43,778 nt of DNA, taken from positions 1 through 43,778 of the forward strand of contig CASDZZ010000007.1 of assembly GCA_949285875.1 (NCBI GenBank), read 5' to 3'. The notes beneath the pieces were generated by a model. It was given only the letters and a program-made list of their open reading frames with translations, did no database searches and was not told the origin of the DNA. The position numbers and the translations under genes were made by a program. This document shows, piece after piece, positions 76 through 14,206 of this stretch (its first letter is position 1; each line of letters opens with the position of its first letter). This DNA comes from an uncultured bacterium. Lineage in GTDB: Bacteria; Bacillota_I; Bacilli_A; RF39; UBA660.

Positions 76-107
76 GAAAAAAGCAAGAATTAATCTTGCT
101 TTTTCTT
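76..107. terminator. Bidirectional Rho-independent terminator after the ten-gene operon
   Basis: An 8-bp stem (AAGCAAGA at 81-88 with TCTTGCTT at 94-101) and a 5-nt loop are followed by a T tract on the plus strand and a TTTTCA run on the minus strand. It would end the minus-strand operon whose last gene is the SpeD homologue. The 80 bases between it and that gene also hold a small dyad (TACAC at 150-154, GTGTA at 161-165) of unknown meaning. Confidence 0.8.
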
Positions 108-185: not shown

Positions 186-548
186 TTAAGTTGTAATTGG
201 GATGTCTCCACGATTAATTGTTCTTATTTTATAATTATTGGTTGAAAAAATATCACACAAATATTTTACCACATTCTCAATATTAATATTTGTATCACAT
301 AAGAATATATCGATAGCTGCATATTGATATTCTGGCCATGTATGAATTGTAAAATGAGATTCTTTTAATACTAATACACCACTAACACCATATGGTTTAA
401 ATTGATGAAAACAACTTTTTACAACATTAAAATTTCCAATTTTCCCAGCTTCTATCATCACTTCTTTTATTTTAGAAACTGATACTAAGTAGTCATTATT
501 ACATTCATAAAAGTCTAATAAATAATGTATTCCTAAAATATCATTCAT
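186..548 (-). CDS. speD: S-adenosylmethionine decarboxylase proenzyme (class 1B SpeD family)
   Basis: The 120-residue length is that of the prokaryotic class 1B family, which self-cleaves to make a pyruvoyl enzyme. The processing site is intact: E63-S64 in LKESHFTIHTWPEY, where S64 would become the pyruvoyl group. The supporting H69 and C84 (in IFLCD) are also present. Family members decarboxylate SAM to the aminopropyl donor for spermidine; some homologues act instead on amino acids such as arginine or ornithine. Start ATG 548 has a GGAGAA site and overlaps the preceding ligase-like gene by 8 bp, so the two are translationally coupled. It is the last gene of the operon. No spermidine synthase is visible in the window, which argues for a specialised role here. 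The family is certain; the substrate is not. Confidence 0.93.
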   Translation of the reverse strand: MNDILGIHYLLDFYECNNDYLVSVSKIKEVMIEAGKIGNFNVVKSCFHQFKPYGVSGVLVLKESHFTIHTWPEYQYAAIDIFLCDTNINIENVVKYLCDIFSTNNYKIRTINRGDIPITT

Positions 549-1629
549 TATTATTTTTCTCCATAATCATTTGAAAATAATCTACTGAATAATTCCTAAA
601 AAATTTTTTAGGATCTTCTATCCAATTATTTACTTCTTTCCACAATATATCTATTCCTTTATCTCCATAACATTTTATAAAACTATCATAATTAATAAAT
701 GCTCCATTAATATCTTTATAGGCATCATTTTTTAAATATAAACTTTTAGAGAACTTAGCACCAGACCAATCTAAAATAACTGGTGCGAAAAATCTTATTG
801 GAAATTCATTAAAACCTAATCTAACAAGCCCTTCAGTATGCATTCGCTGAGCCCAAATGCCAGACCAATCTCCACCATCTAACATAACTGTTAAAGTGTT
901 GTTTTTCTTATCTTCCTCTAGCATTGCTACCCCTTTAGTTAAATCTCTAAATTGAGTATTTATATCCACATATTCTTCATTTTCTTCTGTAACTTTTATC
1001 TCATATAAACCATGGATTGGACAATATCCTTTCAAAATTAACTCATTCTTATTATGTTTTTCTTCTAATCTTTTTATAGTTTTTTTACCAAGACCACACG
1101 TTGGACATATTGTCCTAATATGTAAATCTGATGCTGACAGAAATAAAAGTTCTTTAAAATATTCTTTGTCATTTACAATATTAATAAGTGATTTTCTTAT
1201 ATATCTATTTTTTTGAAATTCATTATAACTTCTTACAGAATAAGGAATATTAGCCAAAACTGATAATTTTTCTAAAATCTCATTAAATCTTTTCATATTA
1301 ATCTGTTCTTTAGATTCTTGTTGATAAAAACTATGTCGTTGATCTTTATAATAAATTTCTTCATTATATTCTATTGTTTCTGCTGGACTATTTTCCAATT
1401 CATCAAATTGAACTTCCGTTTCTACTTTCAAATCATCTCTAATTTTACTCGCTAATGCAAAAGCTGTCATAAGTGTTGTTATCGTTCCTAGATGCGGACT
1501 ACTATTAGGTTGTGCCGATGTGTTTATTATTATCTTTTTTTGATTTTTGTACTTATACAAAATTAAATCACTAAGTTTATTAGTTACATGCGCAATTCCG
1601 ATTGGTGGATAAAATACTTCTCTTTTCAT
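541..1629 (-). CDS. Truncated class I aminoacyl-tRNA-synthetase-like ligase (closest in feel to class I LysRS)
   Basis: This 362-residue protein shows class I synthetase features. There is a HIGH-like motif PHLGT at 45-49 in a TSAQPNSSPHLGTI context and a KMSKS-like KFSKS at 292-296. Between them lies a probable zinc knuckle (C175, C178, C203, H206) of the sort found in class I lysyl-tRNA synthetases. The chain stops about 65 residues after KFSKS, so an anticodon-binding domain is essentially missing. Synthetase paralogues trimmed in this way (MshC, EpmA and GluQRS are known examples) ligate amino acids to small molecules, proteins or tRNA bases. Here it probably activates an amino acid as its adenylate for a pathway ligation; that is inference. 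The start overlaps the upstream stop as TAATG, and an AGGAGGT-like site lies just upstream. The amino acid cannot be told from sequence alone. Confidence 0.7.
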   Translation of the reverse strand: MKREVFYPPIGIAHVTNKLSDLILYKYKNQKKIIINTSAQPNSSPHLGTITTLMTAFALASKIRDDLKVETEVQFDELENSPAETIEYNEEIYYKDQRHSFYQQESKEQINMKRFNEILEKLSVLANIPYSVRSYNEFQKNRYIRKSLINIVNDKEYFKELLFLSASDLHIRTICPTCGLGKKTIKRLEEKHNKNELILKGYCPIHGLYEIKVTEENEEYVDINTQFRDLTKGVAMLEEDKKNNTLTVMLDGGDWSGIWAQRMHTEGLVRLGFNEFPIRFFAPVILDWSGAKFSKSLYLKNDAYKDINGAFINYDSFIKCYGDKGIDILWKEVNNWIEDPKKFFRNYSVDYFQMIMEKNNNE

Positions 1630-2681
1630 TATTTACCTCCTCGATATACTGTTACTATTTCTCTCTGAAATAGTTCTTTTCCAATTTTAACAAACTTTTT
1701 TTCTAATCTGTTTTTTTCTCCTTTTGTAAGAGGGGAAATTTCGTTTATTTCAAAAATTATCTTATTTCCTTTCAAACTATAGTGCCATGTTCCTTTCAAT
1801 CCTTTAGAAAACAATATCACGCCTTCGATTTGCCCTGCTGCTTTCCAAATTAGAGTTTTATTTTTTCCGTTTAGTATCCATTCCTTATCAGAATAACTTA
1901 TTAATAGTGGATCAAACTTACCAAGAATAATTGGATAACTTATTTTAACTTCTTTACTATCTGGTAATGATTCATAATAATATTTTTTTTTGTCAATAGA
2001 TAGATATTTTGCTTTTTTGATATACTTATCTAAATCTTCTTTAATTTCCTTATATTTTAATCCTGACCAATGTAAGAAATCCTGTCTTGTTGCCGGTCCA
2101 TAATATTTAAAATATCTATAAATTAAATCAGAATTTATTTTCTTGCTATCAACAATATCATTTTGTTTGTATAATTTTTTATCTTCTTCATTAAGAATTC
2201 CATATAGCACTTTATGATAAGTAGCTAAAATTAGTAAACCACTCCATGCCATTATCTCTTTTGATTTGTATTTTGGTATAATATTTTGAATCTCTGATTT
2301 TTCTATTGTTTTTTTATTATTTTCATAAAAAAAATCAGTAATTGAATTTAAGTATTTACTATAATCTATTTTTAAATGTTTAGCATATTTATACACCCAA
2401 TTATCACTTTGACAATACAAATCTGAAATTAAATTGTAATCATTTTTATGATATATATGTAATGTTGTTCTTTGCCCCCAACTTTTAATTAAATTGTTAT
2501 TACTAAAAATATTACATTTATAATTGGTTCTATTATATATAGATATTAATGCGTAGTTTTGATATTGGCATTGTATTCCAATTAATGATTCAACACACAT
2601 ATCAGCACTTTCAAACTTATCTATTAATCCATTGTTATATAACCTTAATTTTTGCAAATCTAAATTCGAATAGTTACTCAT
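1629..2681 (-). CDS. Winged-helix DNA glycosylase-like protein, AlkZ/YcaQ (HTH_42) family
   Basis: The 350-residue chain carries the landmarks of the HTH_42 family: a WGQRTTLHIYHKND block near 70-80, GPATRQDFLHWSGL in the middle, ILGKFDPLLISY, and a C-terminal GVILFSKGLKGTWHY. Members include AlkZ, which unhooks azinomycin interstrand DNA crosslinks and protects its producer. The residues at 36-40 read IQCQY, placing Q37 and Q39 exactly like the catalytic QxQ pair of AlkZ, as I recall it. This copy therefore looks like an active alkyl-base glycosylase rather than a dead homologue. It sits mid-operon, with an 8-bp overlap with the preceding methyltransferase and TAATG coupling to the ligase-like gene. 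The context suggests self-resistance to a DNA-reactive product. A general repair role is possible too. Confidence 0.82.
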   Translation of the reverse strand: MSNYSNLDLQKLRLYNNGLIDKFESADMCVESLIGIQCQYQNYALISIYNRTNYKCNIFSNNNLIKSWGQRTTLHIYHKNDYNLISDLYCQSDNWVYKYAKHLKIDYSKYLNSITDFFYENNKKTIEKSEIQNIIPKYKSKEIMAWSGLLILATYHKVLYGILNEEDKKLYKQNDIVDSKKINSDLIYRYFKYYGPATRQDFLHWSGLKYKEIKEDLDKYIKKAKYLSIDKKKYYYESLPDSKEVKISYPIILGKFDPLLISYSDKEWILNGKNKTLIWKAAGQIEGVILFSKGLKGTWHYSLKGNKIIFEINEISPLTKGEKNRLEKKFVKIGKELFQREIVTVYRGGK

Positions 2682-3375
2682 GCTTTATTGCATATATAAG
2701 CACAGAATCATAATTTGGGTCATTTGCGATTGGAACCTTTTTCACAACTAAGATTTTACAATTTTGTTTTTTACTGAAATCTTGTATCATTTTTTCTGAT
2801 AGATAATTATTATTAAAGCCCATCATTTTACTATATGATTCAGAAAAGCACCAATTAGCTCCTAATAATGTTCCATCTTTCTCTAATAAATTATAAAGTT
2901 TTTTTAAATTACTTATATATTCCTTTTCACTTCTACATAATCCTAACAATCCAAATTGCGATACATTGTTATATTTAATGGTATTATTAATAGATGAATG
3001 CAAAACATCACAAATTAAATAATCTACACGAATTTTAAGAGTGTCATCAAAATTTTTATCATATTTTTTTATTGCATATTCACAACTATTAGGATATAAC
3101 TCTTTCTTCCTAATTTGTTCATTAAGAAAAAACGCCTCTTTAGAAATATCTACACAAAGTACTTTTTCAATATTTTTAAACGCAAGTAACCAAAAATAAA
3201 TATTACTACCACTACCAAAATCAATTAGTGTACCATTACATGCGTATTTATTTATTAATTCTAAAATTTCTTCTGTTCCTTGACCTTCTCTAAACGGAGA
3301 ACCATAGTAATCATTAAAATATTTTAACTGTTTTTTGTATTCTTCTTTGTCTATCTTATCAAAATTCATATTCAC
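2674..3375 (-). CDS. Class I SAM-dependent methyltransferase (small-molecule type)
   Basis: The 233-residue protein has a Rossmann methyltransferase core: motif I IDFGSGS at 51-57, an acidic motif II VLCVDIS, and a late block with NLLEKDGTLLGANW. The QFGLLGLCRSEKEY segment before the last block recalls the NNMT/PNMT/TEMT-type N-methyltransferases, so an amine may be the acceptor. Translation begins at GTG 3375 or ATG 3369; neither has a good ribosome site. A 46-bp gap separates it from the preceding gene, the longest gap in the core of the operon. Product and target are unknown. Confidence 0.72.
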   Translation of the reverse strand: MNMNFDKIDKEEYKKQLKYFNDYYGSPFREGQGTEEILELINKYACNGTLIDFGSGSNIYFWLLAFKNIEKVLCVDISKEAFFLNEQIRKKELYPNSCEYAIKKYDKNFDDTLKIRVDYLICDVLHSSINNTIKYNNVSQFGLLGLCRSEKEYISNLKKLYNLLEKDGTLLGANWCFSESYSKMMGFNNNYLSEKMIQDFSKKQNCKILVVKKVPIANDPNYDSVLIYAIKHE

Positions 3376-3421
3376 ATAATTAATCTCATAGTTCTATTAA
3401 ACTATTTTGATATATTCCTTT

Positions 3422-4165
3422 CTATTTTTTATTAGAAATTCGTTTTAAAACAATAATATAAGTACCATTTTCATCTTCTATTTTTTCTTGTATTACAAAC
3501 TTATTACTTTTGTCTACAATTTTTTTAATCATATTATATTCGTAATTATATAATTTAAAATTTGTTTCAAAAACCAAATTATCTTTATTAAAATATTGAT
3601 ACCAAAACTCAATATGAGTCTTATGATGTATATGCTTATTATATCTTTTAATATTTAAGTCATTAAATGTAAACTGTTTAGAAAAATAAAATTTATTATC
3701 TTCAACTTTTGAATCATAATATGTTAATGTTTTTCCCAAATTAAAGTCAAATAGTTCTAAAACAATATATTTTGTTACTGAATAACTATTTTCTAAAAAT
3801 TTTTTAAAATTAGAATAATTTAAGTATTGTATTCCTTGATCTAAAGCAAAAATACAATCACATTCGATTTTTAATTCATTTATATTTTTCATATCACAGA
3901 TATATGTTTTAACATTTTTTATACTTTGTTGTTCTTTTTGATTATTAATAATATTTATCATTGTTTTTTCAATATCTATAAAATATGATTCTTTAAAAAT
4001 TTCTGAACATTCTCTTAAATATACTCCGCTTGCACAAGGGCATAGAGCCATAGAAGTAATATCATATTTGTCTTTGATTGCCTTTAATAGTTTAATTTTC
4101 TTATAATCTTTTTTTACTTCTTGTATATAAAATGTTGCTCTTTCTTTATATGTTATTTTTTTCAT
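3422..4165 (-). CDS. Divergent class I SAM-dependent methyltransferase-like protein
   Basis: The order of elements in this 247-residue protein matches a methyltransferase. An N-terminal helix pair is followed by a motif I position reading CPCASG (42-47), FIDIE as the acidic ribose-binding strand, ICDMKN, and then FALDQGIQYLNYSNFKKFL and YIVLELFDF. Motif I is unusual because the first glycines of the typical DxGxGxG are cysteine and alanine. This may alter cofactor binding, and use of decarboxylated SAM (made by the SpeD homologue two genes later) as an aminopropyl donor is worth considering; that is speculation. The start overlaps the dehydrogenase-like gene by 20 bp. The lysine- and tyrosine-rich C-terminus shows no further motif. 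Confidence 0.55.
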   Translation of the reverse strand: MKKITYKERATFYIQEVKKDYKKIKLLKAIKDKYDITSMALCPCASGVYLRECSEIFKESYFIDIEKTMINIINNQKEQQSIKNVKTYICDMKNINELKIECDCIFALDQGIQYLNYSNFKKFLENSYSVTKYIVLELFDFNLGKTLTYYDSKVEDNKFYFSKQFTFNDLNIKRYNKHIHHKTHIEFWYQYFNKDNLVFETNFKLYNYEYNMIKKIVDKSNKFVIQEKIEDENGTYIIVLKRISNKK

Positions 4166-5249
4166 AATAATCCCAATGCTCTTTTATTACTTCATGGCTA
4201 ATCTTTCCTTTATCAAATATTTTTCCTCTTACAACTTCAGAATTTTCTTTTCCTTGTAATTCATTATCTAATATCTTTATTATCCATTCTTTTGCATTTG
4301 ATGAATATGCTTCTGTAGTAGATTTAGGATATGCAGATGGTAAATTATCAATTTTACAACATACAACTCCGTTATCCGATACATATATTGGATCATTTAA
4401 AGTAGTATATTTATCAATACTTGGAATATATCCACTACCATATCCGCAAGTTACATCAATTACTACTGTGCCAGCTTTTAAGGAATTAAATATTTCTTTT
4501 GTTATAATAGGTTCAGTGTCATATGTTGAAATAAGAATAGCACCTATAATAGCGTCCATTTCTGGCAAAATTTTCTTTAAATTTTCTTCAGTTGATTCTA
4601 AACAATGAATATTCTCATCCATATAAACGCTCATTTTCTTTAATTTATTAATATTACTACCAAAGACATAAACTTCATTACCTAATTCTGAAGCAAGTTT
4701 TATTGCCGCACCGCCAACATTTCCATAACCAATTACTGCAATTTTTGACTTAGATGCTCCACGAATTTGAAACAACGCTTTACCTGTGCCACCGTATTGT
4801 TTTTGTTGATAAAAATTAGCATACATTATAGCCATTTTTCCAGCAATTTCCCCACCGGGATATGCCATAGGAAAATATCCATCGTCGGTTTCTATAAATT
4901 CATAAGTATATGCTGTTACTTTCTTTTTTTGTAATTCTTTTAATAGTTCATAATTCCCTTCGGCATGAAATATTGCAGACATTTTCGTATTTTCGTTTAA
5001 ATATTTATATTCTTCTTGTGTTGGTCCTTTATATTTTATAATAAAATCACTATTAGTCCAACAATATTCTTTATCCTTTATTATTGCTCCGTGTTTTTTA
5101 TATTCATTATCTGAAAAACCAAGAGCTTCTCCTGCACCTTTTTCTACATACACTTCATATTTTTTTGCTAAATCTTCAATATCTTTTGGCAATAAAATAA
5201 CTCTATTTTCACCATTAATTGTCTCTTTTAACACTGCTACTTTTTTCAT
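4146..5249 (-). CDS. Alanine dehydrogenase / PNT-family NAD(P)-dependent oxidoreductase
   Basis: The 367-residue protein resembles alanine dehydrogenase and N5-(carboxyethyl)ornithine synthase. The N-terminus KETINGENRVILLP has the substrate-binding Arg (R16). YKGP gives the Lys (K74), FHAEG the catalytic His (H95), and IGYGNVGG (173-180) is the dinucleotide-binding loop. The acidic residue found in alanine dehydrogenase within DQGG is replaced, the region reading VIDVTCGYGSG, so simple alanine oxidation is doubtful. Reductive amination or imine reduction on another substrate fits better. Start ATG 5249 is chosen over an upstream frame extension because it has an AGGGGTG site and overlaps the upstream methyltransferase stop as ATGA. 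It is a metabolic enzyme in the middle of the operon and may supply or modify the amino-acid building block. Confidence 0.75.
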   Translation of the reverse strand: MKKVAVLKETINGENRVILLPKDIEDLAKKYEVYVEKGAGEALGFSDNEYKKHGAIIKDKEYCWTNSDFIIKYKGPTQEEYKYLNENTKMSAIFHAEGNYELLKELQKKKVTAYTYEFIETDDGYFPMAYPGGEIAGKMAIMYANFYQQKQYGGTGKALFQIRGASKSKIAVIGYGNVGGAAIKLASELGNEVYVFGSNINKLKKMSVYMDENIHCLESTEENLKKILPEMDAIIGAILISTYDTEPIITKEIFNSLKAGTVVIDVTCGYGSGYIPSIDKYTTLNDPIYVSDNGVVCCKIDNLPSAYPKSTTEAYSSNAKEWIIKILDNELQGKENSEVVRGKIFDKGKISHEVIKEHWDYYEKNNI

Positions 5250-6052
5250 ATTTTCACCCCTACTATACAAATATATTTACCACGATTACATAAATCTTCA
5301 TTTTGTATATATTGCATTTCGATATTAAATATATAATCGTAATTATCTACTAAAATCTTACTTATTGTATTTTTATTTGGAGTTAATGCTTCCTCAACTC
5401 CAATTAATGAAACAACAGGATAACCACATTTAAAAATCGGCATAATATCATGATTTTTATGAATTTTTTCTAATTCATCTATTTTATTAAAATGCACTTG
5501 GGGAACATATTGAGATAATGTACCTATTTCTTTTTCTACTACATTTTTTACTTCACTAGTATTTCCTTTCAATATATTTAAAGCCAGTCCATTATAAAAA
5601 TTTTCACCAACAGAAATAGATATTCCTTTACTTTTCAAATGTGAAGATACAATTTGAATCAATTTATCAGCACTATCAAAAAAAGGTAATACATATATAT
5701 TTAAAATAATATCAAACTGTTCATCAAGCTTTAAATTTTTAATATCAGAGTTAATAATTTTGACACGATCTTTAAATTTTTCTAATTTTAATTCAGCTTG
5801 AGATAACATATTATCAGAAAAATCCACTAATACGCATCTCGTATTATCAAACTCTTTCAAAATTTTATAAGCCCATTCACCTGTACCAGCACCCAATTCT
5901 AAAAATGTAATTGATTTATTTCTAGGAATATATTTTTTTATAATCTCCCACAATAAGTCGTCAGCCAATTTCCAATATAATTTTTTATTATTTTCATCAT
6001 ATTTTGTTGATATATCATTAAAATGTTTTAATATTATCTCTTTCTCACGCAT
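5246..6052 (-). CDS. Class I SAM-dependent methyltransferase
   Basis: The 268-residue protein has the clearest methyltransferase core of the three in the operon: motif I FLELGAGTGEWA (50-61), VLVDFS as the acidic strand, IINSDIKNL, and FDIILNIYVLPFF leading into a predicted motif IV. The C-terminal third (after about 160) is specific to this protein, probably covering the active site and setting acceptor choice. It overlaps the ASCH-domain gene by 19 bp at its start and the dehydrogenase-like gene as ATGA at its end. Its acceptor is unknown. A role in tailoring a pathway intermediate is inferred from the neighbours. Confidence 0.75.
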   Translation of the reverse strand: MREKEIILKHFNDISTKYDENNKKLYWKLADDLLWEIIKKYIPRNKSITFLELGAGTGEWAYKILKEFDNTRCVLVDFSDNMLSQAELKLEKFKDRVKIINSDIKNLKLDEQFDIILNIYVLPFFDSADKLIQIVSSHLKSKGISISVGENFYNGLALNILKGNTSEVKNVVEKEIGTLSQYVPQVHFNKIDELEKIHKNHDIMPIFKCGYPVVSLIGVEEALTPNKNTISKILVDNYDYIFNIEMQYIQNEDLCNRGKYICIVGVKI

Positions 6053-6507
6053 GATTTAGCTCTTTCTCTTGAATCCAAAAAAGATAACAACTCTGGTTTT
6101 TTATCTAAAAGATAGTAAGATTGTGGAACTACAAAATTTGGAAATTGTTGTTGTAATTCGCTTAATGAAACTTCTTCTATAGGAATGATTTCTTCTACTG
6201 GGATTGCATAACCAATATTGTTATATAAATATTCCATCATACCATTATAACTTCCTGGTTCTTCTTGTTCAGCAATCAAGGCAATAGTATTTGCATCAGC
6301 AATTATTGGTTCTCCAAACTTGATTTTAGCAACTATGCTTTTTTTTGTTTTTGAAATATAAATATATGCTTCACTTTCTTCTTTTAAATATCTTGTTCTA
6401 TACTCGTAATGTTTTCTCCCCTCTAACATTGCATCATAATATTCCTCTCTCAAACTCATCAAAACACGCTTTTGTTCTTCTTCAATAAATGATAATTGTC
6501 CTCTCAT
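6034..6507 (-). CDS. ASCH/PUA-like domain protein
   Basis: This is a small (157 residues) soluble protein. Residues about 15-70, including VLMSLREEYYDAMLEGRKHYEYR, then AYIYISKT and IVAKIKFGEPI, follow the ASCH pattern (a PUA-like beta barrel that in other proteins binds RNA or acts on modified nucleosides). The remaining C-terminal half is helical and charged, without a known motif. It begins 4 bp after the P-loop kinase stop and overlaps the next methyltransferase by 19 bp, so it is made with them. It may bind nucleotides or regulate the operon; nothing in the sequence decides this. Confidence 0.55.
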   Translation of the reverse strand: MRGQLSFIEEEQKRVLMSLREEYYDAMLEGRKHYEYRTRYLKEESEAYIYISKTKKSIVAKIKFGEPIIADANTIALIAEQEEPGSYNGMMEYLYNNIGYAIPVEEIIPIEEVSLSELQQQFPNFVVPQSYYLLDKKPELLSFLDSRERAKSCVRKR

Positions 6508-6511
6508 TTTC

Positions 6512-7114
6512 CTACTTCCTTTCTTTTATCAACTTTTTTTGTTTATTTAGATCTATGTTCTTTATTACAATATCTGCTATTTCTTCTGGAGATAAATGTT
6601 CAGTATCAATTACTATATAATTAAAACCACTATTTTGTAAAAATTGTTCCATCTTATCATAACCATCATCATACATTGCACAATTAGATAAATCTTTATC
6701 TTGACAATTACGATTATGAATTCTACTCATTCTTGTAGATACACTTGCTTTTAATAGAACTGTTAAATCCGGTTCCCCACACAACTTTATTAATTCTTGA
6801 TGAAGTGGCATCGTTTCCGCATTACCATGCCAATAATAATTTGATACAAAATGTCTATCATAAATGATATTTTGATTTGAATCACATCTTGTTCCATATA
6901 ATAATCCCAAACCATAGAATAGTGTTAAAAGTGCTTCATCTTCAGTTTCATAAAGTTTCCATTCTAAATCTTTAAGTTGTGACTCATTTATATTTAAAGT
7001 CTCAAATAAAAACTTAAACGGCTTATCAACATATTCATATCCTAATCTATCGGCTAATATTTTTGAAAGTGTTGTTTTTCCACTACCATCCATTCCTTCA
7101 ACTGCAATTCTCAT
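6512..7114 (-). CDS. Thymidylate-kinase-like P-loop nucleotide kinase
   Basis: The 200-residue protein begins MRIAVEGMDGSGKTT, a textbook dTMP kinase P-loop (7-15). A DRH motif in IIYDRHFVSNYYWHG aligns with the dTMP kinase DR(Y/W) element, and a LID-like basic segment follows in RMSRIHNRN. The length is normal for the superfamily. Sequence between the motifs is divergent, and insertion of a second tmk in a biosynthetic-looking operon argues for a special nucleoside or small-molecule substrate rather than housekeeping dTTP synthesis. The Nudix gene precedes it by 28 bp and the ASCH gene follows after 4 bp. The kinase fold is sure; the substrate is open. Confidence 0.75.
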   Translation of the reverse strand: MRIAVEGMDGSGKTTLSKILADRLGYEYVDKPFKFLFETLNINESQLKDLEWKLYETEDEALLTLFYGLGLLYGTRCDSNQNIIYDRHFVSNYYWHGNAETMPLHQELIKLCGEPDLTVLLKASVSTRMSRIHNRNCQDKDLSNCAMYDDGYDKMEQFLQNSGFNYIVIDTEHLSPEEIADIVIKNIDLNKQKKLIKERK

Positions 7115-7142
7115 GAGTTTTTTTCTCCTCCCTAATTGTTTT

Positions 7143-7610
7143 TTAGTATAATTTTAAATCCCATCTTAATTTTTCATCTTGATTTTCATTTTCTTCATAT
7201 ACCATTTCGTTAATTTCTTCATTTTTAAAAACTTCTAATAATTTATCGAAATCATCTGCAAGTTTTGTATTTTTTAATTCATCTTCGTCTATCCAATATA
7301 TTTTACCCTCCGATGTTTCAGAAATAATATCACCACTATAATCATCTGATGTAAATAAAATAATTAATTGTCTTTCTTTTTCTTTTTTATCATACCAATC
7401 TTTGACTCCACATATTCTAACAGAATTCAATTTTAATCCTGTTTCTTCATATACTTCTCTTTTAACTGAAGGGACAATACTTTCTCCTAGTTCTATTTTT
7501 CCTCCTGGAAAAGCAACTCCTTTCCAGCTTTTTATTCTTTCTTGTACTAATACTTTTTTTGTAGTTGGATCAACAATTTTGCACATATTCATTAATTTCA
7601 CATTTTCCAT
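7143..7610 (-). CDS. Nudix hydrolase
   Basis: A 155-residue Nudix protein with an intact box starting GGKIELGES and ending REVYEETGL, giving all the metal-binding glutamates. The family cleaves nucleoside diphosphates linked to another group, such as oxidised or modified NTPs, or dinucleotides. Start ATG 7610 is chosen because of an AAGGAG site directly upstream; an in-frame ATG at 7685 would add 25 basic and aromatic residues that are encoded by a terminator hairpin and are unlike the family. It is the first gene of the operon and directly follows the leader hairpin. It could clean up damaged nucleotides or process a nucleotide intermediate. Confidence 0.85.
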   Translation of the reverse strand: MENVKLMNMCKIVDPTTKKVLVQERIKSWKGVAFPGGKIELGESIVPSVKREVYEETGLKLNSVRICGVKDWYDKKEKERQLIILFTSDDYSGDIISETSEGKIYWIDEDELKNTKLADDFDKLLEVFKNEEINEMVYEENENQDEKLRWDLKLY

Positions 7611-7635
7611 TTTTTTCTCCTTCTCTGTTTTAATA

Positions 7636-7670
7636 TTAAAAAAGGAGATTCTAAAAAAGAACCTCCTCCT
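7636..7670 (-). promoter_or_regulatory. Leader terminator/attenuator of the ten-gene operon
   Basis: Plus-strand GGAGATTCT (7644-7652) and AGAACCTCC (7658-7666) form a 9-bp stem with one G-U pair in the minus transcript. The stem is followed by six U residues (7638-7643), i.e. a Rho-independent terminator between the promoter and the Nudix start. The 3' arm (TCTCCTT) can also pair with the AAGGAGA ribosome site of the Nudix gene, giving a competing fold. Expression of the whole operon therefore probably depends on a choice between structures, or on translation from the ATG at 7685. Confidence 0.6.
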
Positions 7671-7690
7671 CCAAATTAAATTCAAACTAC

Positions 7691-7719
7691 ATAATACAAT
7701 AAATTTTTGTTTATTTTAA
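7691..7719 (-). promoter_or_regulatory. Probable promoter of the ten-gene operon
   Basis: Read on the minus strand, TTAAAA (7719-7714) and TATTAT (7696-7691) are separated by 17 bases. The predicted start is within a few bases of the ATG at 7685, so a leaderless upstream reading is conceivable. The -35 element is weak, which would suit an activated or tightly controlled operon. Confidence 0.4.
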
Positions 7720-7865
7720 CATTCTTAATCAATAATGTCAATGTACATTATATTATAAAAAAAGAATTATACTATCAATTCTAATTAACTCAATAAATAA
7801 ATCTCCAAACCTATAATTCTAATAATGTTGGTATTATGTGCTTTATAGTAAAATCTAAAAAAAAT

Positions 7866-7893
7866 TAATAAAAAAAGAAAGCATTTAGCTTTC
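7866..7893 (-). terminator. Rho-independent terminator after the DUF5655-like pseudogene
   Basis: GAAAGC (7877-7882), loop ATTTA and GCTTTC (7888-7893) are followed on the minus strand by a run of seven or so T residues. It overlaps the stop codon of the upstream reading frame and isolates the ten-gene operon from what precedes it. Confidence 0.75.
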
Positions 7894-8796
7894 CAATAAA
7901 TATAGTTTATTTAAATCATGTTTAACATCGATTGCAACACACTTACTAAGATTGTAACTTTTTTTAATATAAGGAATAATCGTTTCTACATCATTTTCAT
8001 CCGATATTTTAAATGTCATACATAAAGGTTCTACCCCAGTTCGATAAGTATAATCTAATATATTTTGATTATCTTCTACTTTTAACAATCTAACATATAA
8101 TCCATATTTTCTTTTAGATATAGAAATAAAATTCCTTTTCGATTTAAATCTATAATCTCTATATAATTTGTTACAAATAATATTATTTCCTAATTCCATA
8201 ATTCTATTAGAGATATTTTTAAACAATAATTCACAAATAGGTTCTTGTGGTTTTTTTAGATAATAATATAATTTTTTGGCTAGTTCAAGTACATATTCCA
8301 AATTATTTATATCTTCTACTATTAAATAATAGCTTAAAGATGTATTTTCATAACCTTTTCTAATTTTTAATTTGTTTTAACATATATATAAATTATTTTG
8401 ATTAATTCGAACTTCTATAAATCTTTTTTTTAATTTATATACAACTGTTTTTAATAAATAATTTCTTATAACATCTTTTCTTATAGAAATAATATACTCA
8501 TCAAATTTATCAAATAATTTAATAGTCTCAACTTTCTTATTGTAAGTTATATCTTTGTAATTACTAGTATCATTATTATAAATCAAATTTTTAATGTCAC
8601 CTTCTTCATTTTTAAGCTTACAATTTTCCACTTTAACTTTCCTTTCTAATTTTGGATAGTCCTCATTTTTTGAATAAATAACATTGTTATAGATCAAATT
8701 AAATGTAGAGTAGACTTCTATATTGGAATGACTTTTCTTATTTATATAAGCATCTTCGAACTCAAAAATGTTCCTGTGTAACCACCAAGATTGCAA
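7885..8796 (-). pseudogene. Tandem DUF5655-like protein interrupted by an in-frame TAA
   Basis: Two open stretches (8796-8377 and 8376-7885) are in the same frame and separated only by a TAA at 8377-8379. Each half has the same layout. The first has a KLFDKFDEYI helix, KLKKRFIEVRI strands and a YLIVEDINNLEYVLELAKK end. The second has ELLFKNISNRI, KSKRNFISISKRKYGLYVRL and KISDENDVETIIPYIKKSY. This looks like two copies of a DUF5655-type domain (a family seen at the C-terminus of predicted DNA-repair or defence-related proteins). The stop falls inside the first copy. The 5' end runs into the broken PBP gene and no ribosome site is seen, so the true start is probably lost. The restart codon for the second half would be TTG 8301. 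Confidence 0.5.
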
Positions 8797-9839
8797 GAAT
8801 TTTCAACAACTTGCAAAAAAGTTTGAGCTCCATGTCCACCATGCTTCCAACATTTTATTTTAGCATTAGCAACTTTTACACTTCCACCATCATAAAACGT
8901 ATCTTTATCTAAATTCACCAAATTTTCATTTAAAGCTGCAGATAGTGTTATTATTTTAAAAGTTGATCCAGGTTCATAAGTTGCCCAAATCGGAAGATTT
9001 CTATTTAGTGTTTCAGTATCATAATTTTTATAATTTGTCGGGTTAAAATTAGGCCTTGAAGATATAGCAAGTATTTCACCACTATTAGGATCCATCGCTA
9101 TGGCAAGAGCTGTTTCCGGATTATATTTAGTCATTACGTTATCAAGCTCTCTTTCCATGCTAGCTTGCACCTCATGGTTAATAGTAAGGGTAACATTGAC
9201 CCCATTTTGAGGCGATTCATAAACTTGACTTAGGCTTAGTTTATTTCCTTTTGCGTCAGAAAAATACTTAATAGCTCCATACTCACCAGTTAAATAATCA
9301 TCATACTGAAGTTCTATACCAGCAAGCCCTTGATTATCTATCCCAACAAACCCTAAAGTATGAGCTAATTCGGAGCCATATGGATAACTTCTTTTAGATT
9401 CTCTTACTAAATAAACTCCTTCTAATTTCAACTTTTCAATTTTTTCAGCAACCTCATAACTAAGTCTTCTTCCAAAAGGATGAACTCTTTCGATACTAGT
9501 TTTTTTATACACATGACTTTTCATTTCGTCGTATGATACGTTAAGTATCACAGCTAATTTTTTGGTTACAAGCTCTTTGTCTTTTATCTGATTAGGTATT
9601 AAAACTAATGACGTTGTTGTTATATTATCAGCCAAAACAACACCATTCCTATCATAAATTTTACCTCTATCAGCTTCTATAGGAAGATTACGACTCCATA
9701 AATCACTAGCTAAATCATTTAATTTATTATAATCAAAAACTTGAATATAAAATACTTTAAGAATTACTATTATAAAAACAATAAATACCCCTATTATAAA
9801 TAGCTTCATTTTCTGATTTACTTGCTTTTCGTTTAACAT
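8742..9839 (-). pseudogene. Class B penicillin-binding protein, truncated in the transpeptidase domain
   Basis: The product would be 365 residues instead of the usual 600 or more. It has a single membrane helix (about 12-33), a dimerisation domain with EADRGKIYDRNG, and the first part of a transpeptidase domain with SxxK (STFK, 292-295) and SxN (SCN, 348-350). Directly after SCN the family resemblance ends, and about 15 unrelated residues lead to a stop, so the KTG motif is gone. Such a protein cannot be an active transpeptidase. An intact class B PBP lies at 25604-27727, so this was a second paralogue (SpoVD/PBP2-like). The break near 8790 marks a recombination junction with the accessory region to the left. 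Confidence 0.85.
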
Positions 9840-9877
9840 ATAATCACCTATATAAATCTATGATTAATAATTACAAA

Positions 9878-9905
9878 AAAAGAACATATCCATAAGATAC
9901 ATTCT
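9878..9905 (-). terminator. Rho-independent terminator after the transglutaminase-like gene
   Basis: In the minus transcript GAATGTATC pairs with GATATGTTC across a 4-5 nt loop (two wobble pairs) and is followed by seven U residues. It overlaps the end of the preceding gene and separates it from the PBP remnant. Confidence 0.7.
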
Positions 9906-10458
9906 ATTTTTTATTAATTTTAGTCTTTAGTTCATCTAACTCATTAATATAATTATTAAATTCTTTAAAGGTAATTTGCGGTTTTACTTCAAAAAATTCT
10001 GTTACTGGTCTTGCTACCTTCCCGCTTAAATTAACATAATAATCATTTATCTGTTTTATAGCTTCATCTTCTGTTTGAAATTCATATATTCCCTTTCTTT
10101 CAAAATTAGGATGTTCTATATGGTATACTTTATCGTTAATATAACACAATATAAAACAATGCATATGTTCGTCAGCATCCATGTTTTCATAATCATTAGG
10201 TTCGTATATTCTTGTACAAAACATCTTAGACTTTACGTTTATTTTATCTAAAAGATATTTCATAAGATAAACTTGTTCAATACATGTTCCAAGACCATTT
10301 TTAATAGTTTCTTCTAAACTAGACGTTCTATATATTCTTCTAAAATTTTTCATTTCATTTACATGTTTTTCACCATTTATATCTACCCAACCATACGTTA
10401 TATTTTCATCCATAATGGTTAAGATATCATTTATTTTTTTAATGTTTTCTATCGTCAA
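9904..10458 (-). CDS. Transglutaminase-like fold protein
   Basis: The 184-residue protein has the order of a transglutaminase/cysteine-protease core: a Cys at the start of a helix (GLGTCIEQVYLMKYLL, C59), then a His (H98 or H100 in DEHMHCFILCY), and an acidic residue in YHIEHP (E115) where most relatives have Asp. It is soluble and has no signal peptide. It lies 14 bp downstream of the attenuated P-loop kinase and probably shares its transcript, ending at the terminator just after it. It may be a peptidase, an amide transferase or a non-catalytic fold member. The substrate is unknown. Confidence 0.55.
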   Translation of the reverse strand: MTIENIKKINDILTIMDENITYGWVDINGEKHVNEMKNFRRIYRTSSLEETIKNGLGTCIEQVYLMKYLLDKINVKSKMFCTRIYEPNDYENMDADEHMHCFILCYINDKVYHIEHPNFERKGIYEFQTEDEAIKQINDYYVNLSGKVARPVTEFFEVKPQITFKEFNNYINELDELKTKINKK

Positions 10459-10472
10459 TTAATTTCTTCCTC

Positions 10473-10979
10473 CTACCTTATAATAAAATTATTCTCAAGC
10501 ACTTTTAATAATGTTTCATCTAAAGTCAAATTACTAGTATCTAAAACATAGTTTTTAAAAGACTTTATTTTTTTAAACTGATTAAGCAGAACCAAACAAC
10601 GCTCATTCATTCTGCAATCTATCGGTCTTGTTTTATCTCTTCTTAATAATTCTGTTTCACTAGTCATCAATAATATAAAATGAATTTCATAACTTTCAAA
10701 TTGACTTTTTAAGAAATCTAAATCAGTTTCATTTATTATGTAATTAAATACAACATCATATCCAGAATTTAAAGAATTAGAAATTAAAGAAACTATATTT
10801 TTCCAAAATACTTCCAAATGGTTACCTTCTAACCAAGGGCTAACATACCCGCCTTTAACCATATGATATATTTCATCACCTTCTATTAATACTGACTTAT
10901 TTAAACTATTTGCTAATTTATTTGATATTGTACTTTTTCCAACTCCCGCTGGACCTGTTATTAAATATAATTTATTCAT
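10473..10979 (-). CDS. P-loop kinase / phosphotransferase (AAA-family small kinase)
   Basis: The 168-residue protein begins MNKLYLITGPAGVGKST, with the Walker A at about 8-16. A GDEIYHMV segment follows in the position of the acceptor-binding acidic residue of gluconate-, shikimate- or chloramphenicol-kinase type enzymes, then DVVFNYII and a basic LID with RRDKTRPIDCRMNER. Similar uncharacterised kinases are common in Bacilli. Start ATG 10979 has a GGAG site at 10988-10991. The gene is preceded by a leader peptide ORF and competing hairpins, a control arrangement typical of antibiotic-response genes, so modification of a ribosome-targeting drug or a related stress metabolite is a reasonable guess. 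It is followed by the transglutaminase-like gene. Confidence 0.7.
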   Translation of the reverse strand: MNKLYLITGPAGVGKSTISNKLANSLNKSVLIEGDEIYHMVKGGYVSPWLEGNHLEVFWKNIVSLISNSLNSGYDVVFNYIINETDLDFLKSQFESYEIHFILLMTSETELLRRDKTRPIDCRMNERCLVLLNQFKKIKSFKNYVLDTSNLTLDETLLKVLENNFIIR

Positions 10980-10999
10980 ATTATCATCTCCTTTTTTAT

Positions 11000-11031
11000 T
11001 GCAAGAAAAAATCTTGCATAAAAGCAAGATT
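11000..11031 (-). promoter_or_regulatory. Attenuator: terminator and competing hairpin before the P-loop kinase
   Basis: Minus-strand AATCTTGC and GCAAGATT (plus 11024-11031 and 11010-11017) form an 8-bp stem followed by a run of U residues: a terminator. The same 3' arm can instead pair with the next segment (TGCAAGA 11000-11006 with TCTTGCA 11012-11018). Upstream, TAATCTT can pair with AAGATTA inside the leader ORF. The segments are therefore mutually exclusive, as in translation-controlled attenuators. Confidence 0.65.
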
Positions 11032-11038
11032 AAACATT

Positions 11039-11098
11039 TTAATATATATTAACTTCAGTGTGATTAATCTTACTTTTATACCATTTAATGCTTTTCAT
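11039..11098 (-). CDS. Leader peptide ORF (19 codons) of the kinase attenuator
   Basis: ATG 11098 to TAA 11039 encodes MKSIKWYKSKINHTEVNIY. A clear AAAGGAG ribosome site (11109-11115) lies 10 bases upstream. Just after that site AGTGTGATTA (minus strand) is the exact complement of TAATCACACT inside the ORF (plus 11057-11066 and 11101-11110), so the ORF folds back on its own start region. A ribosome moving or stalling in this ORF would rearrange the downstream hairpins. The peptide has no known relative that I recognise. Its position and structure are the evidence. Confidence 0.6.
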   Translation of the reverse strand: MKSIKWYKSKINHTEVNIY

Positions 11099-11161
11099 CC
11101 TAATCACACTCCTTTCATAACATTACATTCAAATAATACATAAAAATTTAAATAAAGTCAA

Positions 11162-11190
11162 TAAAAAAACATATCCATTTTGGATATGTT
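11162..11190 (-). terminator. Rho-independent terminator after pyruvate kinase
   Basis: AACATATCC (11168-11176), loop of 5, GGATATGTT (11182-11190): a perfect 9-bp stem followed on the minus strand by seven T residues. It overlaps the pyruvate kinase stop codon. Confidence 0.9.
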
Positions 11191-12583
11191 ATATTCTTTC
11201 TATTCTCATAAAGTTAGTTTTACTATTTCTAGGGAAACCACCAGTTATAATAATAGCATCGCCTTTATTTAAATCAGCAAATTTCTTAGCACAATTAATA
11301 GCTTCTTCTACGATTTCTTCAGTAGTATCAAATAAACGAGTTACAACTGGGTATACACCATAATTTAAAGCTAAGCTTCTTGCTGTTTCTTCTGACGTAC
11401 AAACAGCTAAAACTGGGCTTTCACTTCTTAAATTACTAATTACTTTTGCAGTAGTTCCAGAAATAGTTGATGCAACAATAACTTTTGCCCCAATAGTTTT
11501 GCAAGCTTCAGTAACACTAGTTGCAACAGCTCCTATTTGATCGTTACTAACATTTTCATAATTTAATTTGTAACTTAAATGTTCTTCTGTTTTTTCACAA
11601 ATTTTACCCATAAACGTTACTGTTTCTACAGGATACTTACCGGTTGTAGTTTCACCACTTAACATAACAGCATCAGCACCATTCATAACAGCATTAGCTA
11701 TATCTGAAACTTCAGCACGAGTTGGTCTTGGATTTTTCTTCATTGATTCAAGCATCTCAGTTGCAACTATTGCAATCTTACCTCTTCTTCTGCATTCATC
11801 AATAATCATTCTTTGATAATAAGGTAAATCTTCCATAGGAACTTCAACACCCAAGTCTCCTCTGGCCACCATAATTCCATCACTTACTTCGGCAATTTCT
11901 TTTAGATTTTCTATACCAGTAGTACTTTCTATTTTAGCTATAAGAAGAGTTTTGCTATTATATTCTTCTAAAATTTTTCTAACCTGTAAAACATCTTCCT
12001 TACAAGAAACAAACGATAATGCAATATAATCAGCTTCATGAGTAATAGCATATATTATATCTTCTCTATCTTGCTCACTAATAAATGGAATATCTAAAGC
12101 AACACCAGGAGCACTTAAACTCTTCTTGTTACCTAAAATACCACCATTTATTATTTTACAAGTTACGCCATCTTCTTCTTTAGAAATAACTTCTATTTTC
12201 ATTAAACCATTTTCTAGCAAAACTACGTTTCCAACATTTAAAGAGTCAACAGCAGCTGGATGGTTTACACTAAACCTTTCTTCGTTACCTAAAACTTCTT
12301 CTTTAACGATTCTTATAGTTTTTCCTTCTTCTAATTTAATTTCTCCATTTTCAAGCATCCCATTTCTAAATTCTGGCCCTTTAGTATCATATAATATAGC
12401 CACGTTCTTACCAGTTGTTTTTCTAACTTCTTTAACAGCAGCTACAACTCCTATTTTTTCTTCATCAGTTGCATGAGAAAAATTTATTCTGGCAACATTC
12501 ATACCATTTAAAACCATTTTACTCATAACTTCAGGACTACAACTACTAGGTCCTATACTACATATAATTTTTGTTTTTTTCAT
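11189..12583 (-). CDS. pyk: Pyruvate kinase
   Basis: Converts phosphoenolpyruvate and ADP to pyruvate and ATP, the last step of glycolysis. The 464-residue length is that of the minimal enzyme without the C-terminal PEP-utiliser domain seen in Bacillus. Visible signatures are MKKTKIICSIGPSS at the start, MNVARINFSH, the catalytic-lysine segment LLIAKIEST, IMVARGDLGVEVP and the VATEMLESM motif. It starts 3 bp after the pyrophosphatase gene, so the two are one transcript, and ends at a strong terminator. Identity is secure. Confidence 0.97.
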   Translation of the reverse strand: MKKTKIICSIGPSSCSPEVMSKMVLNGMNVARINFSHATDEEKIGVVAAVKEVRKTTGKNVAILYDTKGPEFRNGMLENGEIKLEEGKTIRIVKEEVLGNEERFSVNHPAAVDSLNVGNVVLLENGLMKIEVISKEEDGVTCKIINGGILGNKKSLSAPGVALDIPFISEQDREDIIYAITHEADYIALSFVSCKEDVLQVRKILEEYNSKTLLIAKIESTTGIENLKEIAEVSDGIMVARGDLGVEVPMEDLPYYQRMIIDECRRRGKIAIVATEMLESMKKNPRPTRAEVSDIANAVMNGADAVMLSGETTTGKYPVETVTFMGKICEKTEEHLSYKLNYENVSNDQIGAVATSVTEACKTIGAKVIVASTISGTTAKVISNLRSESPVLAVCTSEETARSLALNYGVYPVVTRLFDTTEEIVEEAINCAKKFADLNKGDAIIITGGFPRNSKTNFMRIERI

Positions 12584-12586
12584 AAA

Positions 12587-14206
12587 TTACTCCTCCTCAA
12601 ATTCCATAACTAAAGGTATAACCTGTTTCTTTCTAGAAACACAATCTTCTATATACATACCTTGTTTAATTTCTTTTTCATACATTTTTTCAAGCATTGA
12701 TTCACACCCTTTTGTATAGAAAAGGTAAGAACCATTACTTAATATATCTGTTACATAAAATAAGATAAAATCTACTTTAGCTTCTTCTTTCATTTTAACC
12801 AAAGTTTCTATTATTTTTTCTTTTCTTTCTATTATATCTTGAACATTAGGTGTTACAATTTGTGATACTTTAAAACTTTTTTTACTTCCTTGATATAATT
12901 TAATATCTATATTAATTAAATCATCTTCTGTTTTATCTTTATAATCACTACCTGCAGCAAACATCTCTTTTGCAAATTCCTTATAATTTTCCCCACTAAT
13001 TTCTTCAAGTTTTTTTACAACTTTTCTATCTATATCAGTAGTAGTAGGACTAGTTAAAGCAAGAGTATCAGACAAAATACCACCTAACATAATACCTGCT
13101 ATATGCTTAGGAATTAAAATACCATTTTCATTAAATAAGTAAAACATAATAGTATTTGTACTACCAACAGCCATTCCTCTAAAATTTAATGGTGATGATG
13201 TAGTTATATTACCTAAATTATGATGATCAACTATCTCGGTTATTTCAGCTTCTTCGATTCCTTCAGCTGATTGACCTTTTTCACTATGATCAACTAAAAT
13301 TACTTTTTTTAAGTTTGCTTTATTATTAGCAGATAATCTAATCATACCCTTACAAATTCTGTTCTTATCTAGTACCGGATAATTATTAAATCCTAATTTT
13401 TTAGCTTTTTCTAAAAACTCATCAAAATATTCATTTTCAAATACTGTTACAGGATTTTCTGTACAAAGTAATGTTTCAACTGAATTACTAAGTAATATTT
13501 TCTTTACTGCTTTAAAAGTATCATAAGGTGTTCTAATAATATTTACATTATTCTTTTTTGCTATATTTATATGTTCTTCTTTTATAAACTGATTACCAGA
13601 TATAACAATTAATCTAACACCACTATTAACAGCTGATTCTATAATACTATGTCTATCTCCTACAACTAAAATATCTTCTTTTGTTAATTTTACAGTTTCT
13701 AAAAAAGTTGTACTTTTATAAGAAACAGCTGATACTAATCCATTTATAGCATCGTCAGCTCTTACTATTTCTTCACCATTTAAGATTTTAAGAATATTAT
13801 CATAAGTAGCTACTAATTTATTACTTTCATCATTAAATAAATTTTTTAAGATTGTTTTAGCAGTAACTAAGCCCATAAAACTATTATCATCATCAACAAT
13901 AGGTACTCCAGTTACGTTATTTTTTACAATAAAATCATACGTATCTAAAATAGAACACAACTTATTTAAGAAGAAATCTTTATAATATTTTATGTCTTTA
14001 ATTTTTATTCTTACATCATTTAAATACCTAGGTTCTTTTACATTAAAATGATTAAGAACAAACTTTGTTTCATCATTTAATTCACCTAGAGCTCTAGCTT
14101 CAGCATTAAAACCTTGAACTTTCTTAATATATTCTAAAGCTATAGCACTTGTTATTGAATCTGTATCTGGGTTACGATGCCCAAAAATATATATTTTTTC
14201 CAACAA
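12587..14206 (-). CDS. ppaC: Manganese-dependent inorganic pyrophosphatase with CBS and DRTGG domains (DHH family)
   Basis: Hydrolyses pyrophosphate to two phosphates in the cytoplasm. The 539-residue chain starts with the family II motif IFGHRNPDTDS. CBS repeats flank a DRTGG-like domain (about 75-300; VTGVPIVDDDNSFMGLVTA is one CBS end). Catalytic DHH is VDHHNLGNI at about 328, and a C-terminal DHHA2 domain follows. CBS-containing family II enzymes are controlled by adenine nucleotides. The start is TTG (14206 or the next codon) after an AGAGGTGAGG site. It is cotranscribed with pyruvate kinase. Other CBS-DHH phosphoesterases look alike, but the length and motifs favour this assignment. Confidence 0.9.
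   Translation of the reverse strand: MLEKIYIFGHRNPDTDSITSAIALEYIKKVQGFNAEARALGELNDETKFVLNHFNVKEPRYLNDVRIKIKDIKYYKDFFLNKLCSILDTYDFIVKNNVTGVPIVDDDNSFMGLVTAKTILKNLFNDESNKLVATYDNILKILNGEEIVRADDAINGLVSAVSYKSTTFLETVKLTKEDILVVGDRHSIIESAVNSGVRLIVISGNQFIKEEHINIAKKNNVNIIRTPYDTFKAVKKILLSNSVETLLCTENPVTVFENEYFDEFLEKAKKLGFNNYPVLDKNRICKGMIRLSANNKANLKKVILVDHSEKGQSAEGIEEAEITEIVDHHNLGNITTSSPLNFRGMAVGSTNTIMFYLFNENGILIPKHIAGIMLGGILSDTLALTSPTTTDIDRKVVKKLEEISGENYKEFAKEMFAAGSDYKDKTEDDLINIDIKLYQGSKKSFKVSQIVTPNVQDIIERKEKIIETLVKMKEEAKVDFILFYVTDILSNGSYLFYTKGCESMLEKMYEKEIKQGMYIEDCVSRKKQVIPLVMEFEEE

Follow-up and report, generated by a model that had tools for sequence, protein, structure and literature searches.

The window analyzed here, a 43,778-nucleotide stretch of DNA from an uncultured bacterium of the UBA660 lineage of Bacilli (contig CASDZZ010000007.1, positions 1 to 43,778), carries close to its start a compact operon of ten open reading frames (ORFs), all on the minus strand between 186 and 7610, at the coordinates given by a first-pass annotation of the same DNA. 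The set includes a ligase resembling class I lysyl-tRNA synthetase (LysRS) and an S-adenosylmethionine (SAM) decarboxylase. Promoter, leader, genes, and terminator are as follows.

7713-7741, minus strand: sigma-A-type promoter, TTGACA-17-TAAAAT with TG before the -10 element (11/12 matches; kept ahead of gene 1 in most loci)
7638-7667, minus strand: attenuator-like leader hairpin with a T run behind it, located between promoter and gene 1 (RNA z-score -3.3)
7143-7610, minus strand: gene 1, NUDIX hydrolase with intact Nudix box (Pfam 8.7e-16)
6512-7114, minus strand: gene 2, thymidylate-kinase-like (TMK-like) P-loop kinase (Pfam 6e-14; PADLOC PDC-M51B and viperin-associated kinase VakA, 1.8e-12)
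6034-6507, minus strand: gene 3, ASCH-domain protein with GRKHYEYR motif (Pfam 0.003, weak; PHROG_3136 4.5e-15; PDC-M11B 4.8e-15)
5246-6052, minus strand: gene 4, class I SAM methyltransferase MT1, UbiE/CmoM-like (Pfam 1e-14; PDB profile matches)
4146-5249, minus strand: gene 5, alanine-dehydrogenase (AlaDH)/PNT-family oxidoreductase without the AlaDH catalytic Asp (Pfam 2.4e-38; residue alignment)
3422-4165, minus strand: gene 6, methyltransferase MT2, whose motif I, CPCASG, is unusual (Pfam methyltransferase fold; model pLDDT 80; Foldseek neighbors)
2674-3375, minus strand: gene 7, NNMT/PNMT-like methyltransferase MT3 (Pfam 1.4e-5, just under the NNMT cut-off)
1629-2681, minus strand: gene 8, AlkZ-like (HTH_42) putative DNA glycosylase with Q37-C-Q39 (Pfam 6.3e-18; QCQ invariant in nine loci)
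541-1629, minus strand: gene 9, class I LysRS-like ligase, 362 aa, no Pfam family (Foldseek top match 1irx; invariant motifs)
186-548, minus strand: gene 10, SAM decarboxylase SpeD, S64/H69/C84 kept (Pfam 3.7e-37; alignment to T. maritima AdoMetDC)
77-105, minus strand: intrinsic terminator after SpeD (12-pair stem and T tail)

The genes overlap or nearly touch, as first described, but with gaps of both 28 bp (NUDIX/TMK-like) and 46 bp (MT2/MT3), where only the latter had been counted. The TMK-like and ASCH genes lie 4 bp apart, ASCH and MT1 overlap by 19 bp, MT1 and the AlaDH-like gene meet at ATGA, the AlaDH-like gene and MT2 overlap by 20 bp, the MT3/AlkZ-like and LysRS-like/SpeD pairs each overlap by 8 bp, and the AlkZ-like and LysRS-like genes join at TAATG. 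The one promoter (7741-7713) and one terminator (105-77) proposed for the whole set are both seen; promoter-like matches across the region are not above chance, and the promoter claim rests on conservation.

A search for the ligase over about 85,000 genomes returned eight further loci (L002 to L009), all but one of which contain the complete set of ten, with order and strand unchanged (L002, L003, L004, L005, L006, L008, and L009), the carriers being uncultured Bacilli or Clostridia. The eighth, L007, preserves MT3 to SpeD up to a contig end, followed by the start of a second NUDIX gene, and in L009 a probable frameshift divides the ligase gene into two ORFs. The loci range from 60-84% (L009) up to 96-99% (L002) in their identity to the window, and dN/dS values of 0.05-0.30 for each of the ten genes (window versus three loci, excluding the ASCH gene of L008, which has an internal stop in the frame used) indicate purifying selection. 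A lack of joint conservation, which the first-pass annotation had named as evidence against its proposal, is thus not what these loci present; conserved order and purifying selection instead uphold the view of one operon acting as one functional unit.

The ligase is present in none of the 10 other genomes of the window's genus, which, together with purifying selection on all ten genes, points to a functional unit that is mobile. In L008, from a metagenome-assembled genome labeled Clostridia, the cassette proteins are 72-86% identical to those of the window, and the RluD-type gene adjoining the cassette has a best identity of just 53% in the window's genome; horizontal gene transfer is the simplest reading of this distribution. 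When the ligase was sought by profile across the class and the phylum, only doubtful short matches came up besides the window, so that it appears to be rare outside the order. Neither MT2 nor MT3 had a match in plasmids, and neither the AlaDH-like enzyme nor MT3 had one in viral contigs; plasmid matches to the AlaDH-like enzyme are about 31-32% identical, those listed being annotated as ordinary alanine dehydrogenases or unannotated.

In the upstream alignment the leader hairpin keeps its position in the window and in L003-L007, and L008 and L009 either lack it or have it in degraded form. As far as single-sequence stability and position can indicate, it resembles an attenuator; its covariation was not significant, being no better than that of shuffles (94/500), and a comparison with Rfam gave no family match. 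The NUDIX gene can be extended in frame to a TTG start (MNLIWRRRFFFRISFF..., window 7608-7685); this extension crosses the hairpin and may be either a translated leader or a chance reading frame.

The ten-gene cassette occurs in about five different insertion contexts. In the window it sits behind an interrupted penicillin-binding-protein (PBP) gene, with a recombinase remnant in between.

8742-9839, minus strand: PBP gene interrupted at VVENSCN (same-genus homologues intact, 636-666 aa; alignments stop at query residue 352-353)
8489-8679, minus strand: remnant of a Ccr/XisF-type serine recombinase (91% DNA identity to L002 8214-8404)

In L002 a recombinase N-terminus follows SpeD, and the segment matching the remnant lies behind it. 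In L009 the cassette, accompanied by a full recombinase related to Ccr and XisF, interrupts a D-alanyl-D-alanine-carboxypeptidase-like gene, the serine-recombinase element (3564-14165) being inserted just behind the SxTK motif. Those of L004-L006 are located behind secA, with a repeat of the secA tail after SpeD in L006 (86% over 234 bp), and those of L003 and L008 have other flanks. In L007 (2617-3257), SpeD is followed by a secA-tail repeat and then by the second NUDIX gene with its promoter, with no integrase ORF. An excised circle or a tandem array would give such a junction and is a possible source of it, an assembly artefact being the alternative; if it is either of the former, the mobile unit would be just the ten genes. 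The PBP gene itself is intact in several same-genus genomes, and in others (among L055, L057, L058, and L059) it is interrupted by elements with different cargo. This cargo includes, on related recombinase elements in sister genomes, AbiEii-like genes or a cytidine-deaminase-like gene, and also a gene for a 1247-aa protein; the site appears to be an insertion hotspot at or near the codons of penicillin-binding motifs.

The predicted model of the ligase (mean pLDDT 65) has class I LysRS (PDB 1irx, Foldseek E 5e-9) as its closest fold; a profile search against the PDB reached 1irx at E 0.36 only, in the N-terminal part. The motifs PHxGT, GAK.SK, and CPxC...CxxHG are invariant in 12 divergent family members, so that the adenylation site appears intact, and with the Foldseek match they indicate a class I catalytic fold with HIGH- and KMSKS-like motifs and a Cys-rich, zinc-type insert. 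Full-length homology to class I LysRS (about 510-520 aa), including the C-terminal anticodon-binding domain, is lacking, and identity to 1irx (about 520 aa) is about 15%. Hence, the protein is LysRS-like rather than a LysRS, and appears to be a truncated member of an uncharacterized family with putative adenylating activity; the initial description as a synthetase-like ligase agrees with its predicted fold, although the protein has no Pfam match. It further differs from LysRS in lying beside ASCH and in antibiotic-type clusters.

Relatives of the ligase (25-40%) are accompanied by an ASCH gene in phages of Streptomyces, in Streptomyces and Amycolatopsis plasmids, and in several family members. 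In Streptomyces phage Picard (L022 9878-11349) and a Streptomyces plasmid (L024 9878-11328) the LysRS-like gene and the ASCH gene ("RNA-binding protein") form a pair without other pathway genes, and in a viral contig (L027 4208-6327) such a pair lies directly behind a seemingly truncated capsid-like gene. Two loci from small-genome uncultured Bacilli, L018 (622-12563) and L041 (1065-12946), share a conserved twelve-gene cassette in which the ligase and ASCH genes accompany genes for a BlsE-like radical SAM protein (2e-49) and a cytosylglucuronate (CGA)-synthase-like protein (6e-49), both scoring under the NCBI equivalog cut-offs, as well as a nucleoside-deoxyribosyltransferase-like (BlsM-like) protein, DegT aminotransferases, an APH-type kinase, a MazG-like protein, and a ribosome-protection ABC-F protein (430 bits, cut-off 380). 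This cassette looks like a blasticidin/mildiomycin-type nucleoside antibiotic pathway; in L018 it lies within a recombinase element, near a split carboxypeptidase-like gene. On Macrococcus plasmids the ligase gene is found with genes for two ATP-grasp proteins (distant relatives of the dapdiamide synthase DdaF), an MFS exporter, and a short unassigned protein in the ASCH position, and on a Pantoea plasmid with those for a methyltransferase, a LOG-type phosphoribohydrolase, a DMT transporter, and an NTP pyrophosphatase. Nucleotide-handling enzymes, as predicted from their families, recur beside the ligase family, and the ten-gene operon adds the TMK-like kinase and the NUDIX hydrolase. A possible similar cluster is L045 (8295-13597), where a decayed LysRS-like gene is followed by ASCH, a carbamoyltransferase C-terminal-domain match, and nucleotidyltransferase-like, NUDIX, and kinase-like genes. 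Long branches in the LysRS-like tree limit its use as evidence to the tight ten-gene clade, and no relations among the other contexts are drawn from it.

SpeD aligns closely with T. maritima AdoMetDC, its S64, H69, and C84 corresponding to the self-processing Ser, the catalytic His, and the Cys of that enzyme (S63, H68, and C83; PMC10407285). It is the sole SAM decarboxylase in the window's genome, in which (90.65% complete) no spermidine synthase was found. Orphan homologues of SpeD may decarboxylate arginine or ornithine instead (PMC10407285), which makes SAM a likely rather than a certain substrate. With that limit, the earlier proposal that SpeD supplies decarboxylated SAM agrees with the kept catalytic residues, and it is plausible that decarboxylated SAM from this orphan enzyme serves something other than spermidine.

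Alanine dehydrogenase relies on a catalytic Arg, Lys, His, and Asp. In the AlaDH-like enzyme, Arg, Lys, and His are kept and the Asp of AxDQG is replaced by Gly (TCGYG), and its NCBIfam alaDH score of 204 bits is below the cut-off of 392; it is dehydrogenase-like by family, as had been suggested, but without the Asp of true alanine dehydrogenases. The same family includes saccharopine dehydrogenase and N5-carboxyethylornithine synthase, and, given the lost Asp, it is reasonable to infer by analogy that the enzyme may use an amine other than ammonia. Of the three methyltransferases originally listed, MT1 and MT2 have Pfam-supported folds and MT3, which distantly resembles NNMT/PNMT, falls just under the cut-off. 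The Foldseek neighbors of the MT2 model include the amino-sugar and peptide N-methyltransferases of antibiotics DesVI, TylM1, CalS10, and CypM, beside glycine N-methyltransferases.

The HTH_42 domain (PF06224) of the AlkZ-like protein spans residues 30-329. Both Gln residues of Q37-C-Q39 are present in the nine loci, with Cys in the middle, where the described motif is (Q/H)-aliphatic-Q or QxD. AlkZ-like proteins are self-resistance glycosylases in Streptomyces genotoxin clusters (PMC9040887); the hint of a DNA-damaging product that the first-pass annotation drew from this gene is compatible with the two kept Gln residues, and genotoxicity stays a presumption. The GRKHYEYR motif of the ASCH protein keeps the Lys and Arg of YqfB (triad Lys21-Thr24-Glu74, plus Arg26; PMC6972931) and has Glu in place of Thr. 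With this nucleophile missing, YqfB-type N4-acylcytosine hydrolysis was rejected, and the protein is better seen as a putative binding protein. Two further candidates were set aside: viperin-type defense, as the kinase is VakA-like, yet the operon has no radical SAM gene, and a puromycin-type pathway, which it recalls by the NUDIX resemblance only, no Pur10, Pur4, Pur3, or Pur6 gene being recognized.

We favor, with roughly even confidence, the explanation that the cassette carries, in mobile form, the pathway to a small molecule that is aminoacylated, N-methylated, and probably nucleotide-linked and DNA-damaging. Read from sequence are the single operon with its constant set and order of genes, its transfer among sites and hosts, the selection on every gene, the protein families, and the failure to find a spermidine synthase; we infer the substrates, the transfer of an aminopropyl group, what kind of acceptor is used, and the genotoxicity of the product. 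SpeD would convert SAM to decarboxylated SAM, which would act as an aminopropyl-type donor for one of the methyltransferase-fold enzymes. Microcin C provides a likeness, in that MccD/MccE, a methyltransferase-fold enzyme and a decarboxylase, install a SAM-derived aminopropyl group; the ten-gene operon differs in having no MccA/MccB and SpeD as the decarboxylase. The AlaDH-like enzyme would carry out an NAD(P)H-dependent reduction that yields an unusual amino acid; as the Asp that handles ammonia is missing, it would probably join a keto acid to a different amine. The LysRS-like enzyme may activate that or another amino acid as the adenylate and transfer it to the amine of a nucleoside- or nucleotide-like acceptor, with ASCH possibly acting as its nucleobase- or RNA-binding partner. 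The remaining methyltransferases would add N-methyl groups to the product, the kinase (TMK-like) and the NUDIX hydrolase would control how the intermediate is phosphorylated and prevent it from doing harm, and the AlkZ-like glycosylase would clear product adducts from the producer's own DNA.

The ligase relatives in antibiotic-like clusters (L018/L041, Macrococcus, and Pantoea), the orphan SpeD, the fold neighbors of MT2, and the kept QxQ of the AlkZ-like protein favor this explanation, and conserved order, purifying selection, and the antibiotic-type clusters around ligase relatives support the initial label of a candidate new biosynthetic operon. That annotation picked out the candidate operon but missed its mobility, the hint given by the nucleotide-type genes (TMK-like, NUDIX, and ASCH), and the broader family to which the ligase belongs. 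Several points weigh against a biosynthetic pathway. Its main weakness is that the ten genes include no exporter, leaving room for an intracellular role, and they include no pathway-specific regulator either. Phages and plasmids also carry the LysRS-like/ASCH pair by itself, so that the ligase does not have to serve biosynthesis; the case for a nucleoside is drawn from the TMK-like and NUDIX genes and the sister clusters, with no nucleoside-building enzyme in the operon; and the AlkZ-like QCQ has Cys for the aliphatic residue of the described motif.

An intracellular role could take the form of an RNA-modification module, in which the LysRS-like enzyme, guided by ASCH, adds an amino acid to a tRNA or rRNA base (compare GluQRS and queuosine), and SpeD, the AlaDH-like enzyme, and the methyltransferases make or decorate the modification, giving resistance to ribosome or tRNA attack. 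ASCH is PUA-related and is the neighbor of the LysRS-like gene at most loci, among them those of phages and plasmids where the two have no other companions, and the ligase is a catalytic core without a full anticodon-binding domain. We nevertheless consider this unlikely, as it leaves the AlkZ-like, NUDIX, and TMK-like genes unexplained and sits poorly with ligase relatives in blasticidin-like and dapdiamide-like clusters. The missing exporter and the mobility of the cassette would also suit an anti-phage chemical defense, with an altered nucleotide poisoning phage DNA or RNA synthesis, as viperin products do, and the AlkZ-like and NUDIX proteins shielding the host. The match of the kinase to viperin-associated kinase and predicted defense families, and the AbiEii-like genes among the other cargo at the PBP site, point the same way, but a PADLOC-type search matched no known complete defense system, the operon has no viperin-like enzyme, and three methyltransferases and SpeD would be left over, which makes this explanation quite improbable. 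That the ten genes are unrelated cargo with only transport in common is conceivable from their different families and mobile-element setting, but very hard to reconcile with an identical gene set and order across about five contexts of insertion, with genes that overlap, with selection acting on each of the ten, and with the SpeD-to-NUDIX junction of L007, which suggests a unit of exactly ten genes.

Amino-acid ligation by aminoacyl-tRNA synthetase (aaRS)-like proteins in natural products, AlkZ self-resistance, and nucleoside antibiotics are already known. The aaRS-like ligases of natural-product clusters, SbzA and AcmF (PMC12945691, PMC6331615), resemble the present one as proteins for aminoacylating a small molecule, but are IleRS-like and class II AlaRS-like rather than class I LysRS-like. 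The likeness to blasticidin S and mildiomycin pathways lies in the sister ligase of the L018/L041 clusters; the Pfam and NCBIfam matches of the ten genes include no CGA synthase, BlsE, or CMP nucleosidase (BlsM) homologue, such homologues occurring in L018/L041 only. With the AlkZ self-resistance clusters (PMC9040887) the operon shares an HTH_42 protein with QxQ inside a candidate cluster, but it is not from Streptomyces, has no polyketide or NRPS (nonribosomal peptide synthetase) genes, and has Cys in mid-motif. Puromycin and 3'-amino-deoxyguanosine clusters (PMC11641026, PMC9239236) offer a NUDIX enzyme guarding a toxic nucleotide, methyltransferases, and amino-acid ligation, and differ by their Pur10-, Pur4-, Pur3-, and Pur6-type genes. 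In the open-access literature searched (most subscription journals lie outside its coverage), neither a class I LysRS-like ligase of this kind, nor the set of ten genes, nor its transport in a mobile cassette was found. A bolder proposal, which we hold only tentatively and think rather doubtful, is that the LysRS-like/ASCH proteins form a new class of amide-bond-forming enzymes and that the cassette makes a new chemical class, DNA-damaging, aminopropylated, aminoacylated, and nucleotide-like, in small-genome uncultured Bacilli.

If the favored explanation is true, uncultured Bacilli with genomes of about 1 Mb, hardly known for secondary metabolism, would exchange compact antibiotic or genotoxin pathways as mobile cassettes. 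An unstudied ligase family would then mark several unexplored pathways, including a blasticidin-like one outside Streptomyces, and the orphan SpeD presents a testable case for decarboxylated SAM beyond polyamine synthesis.

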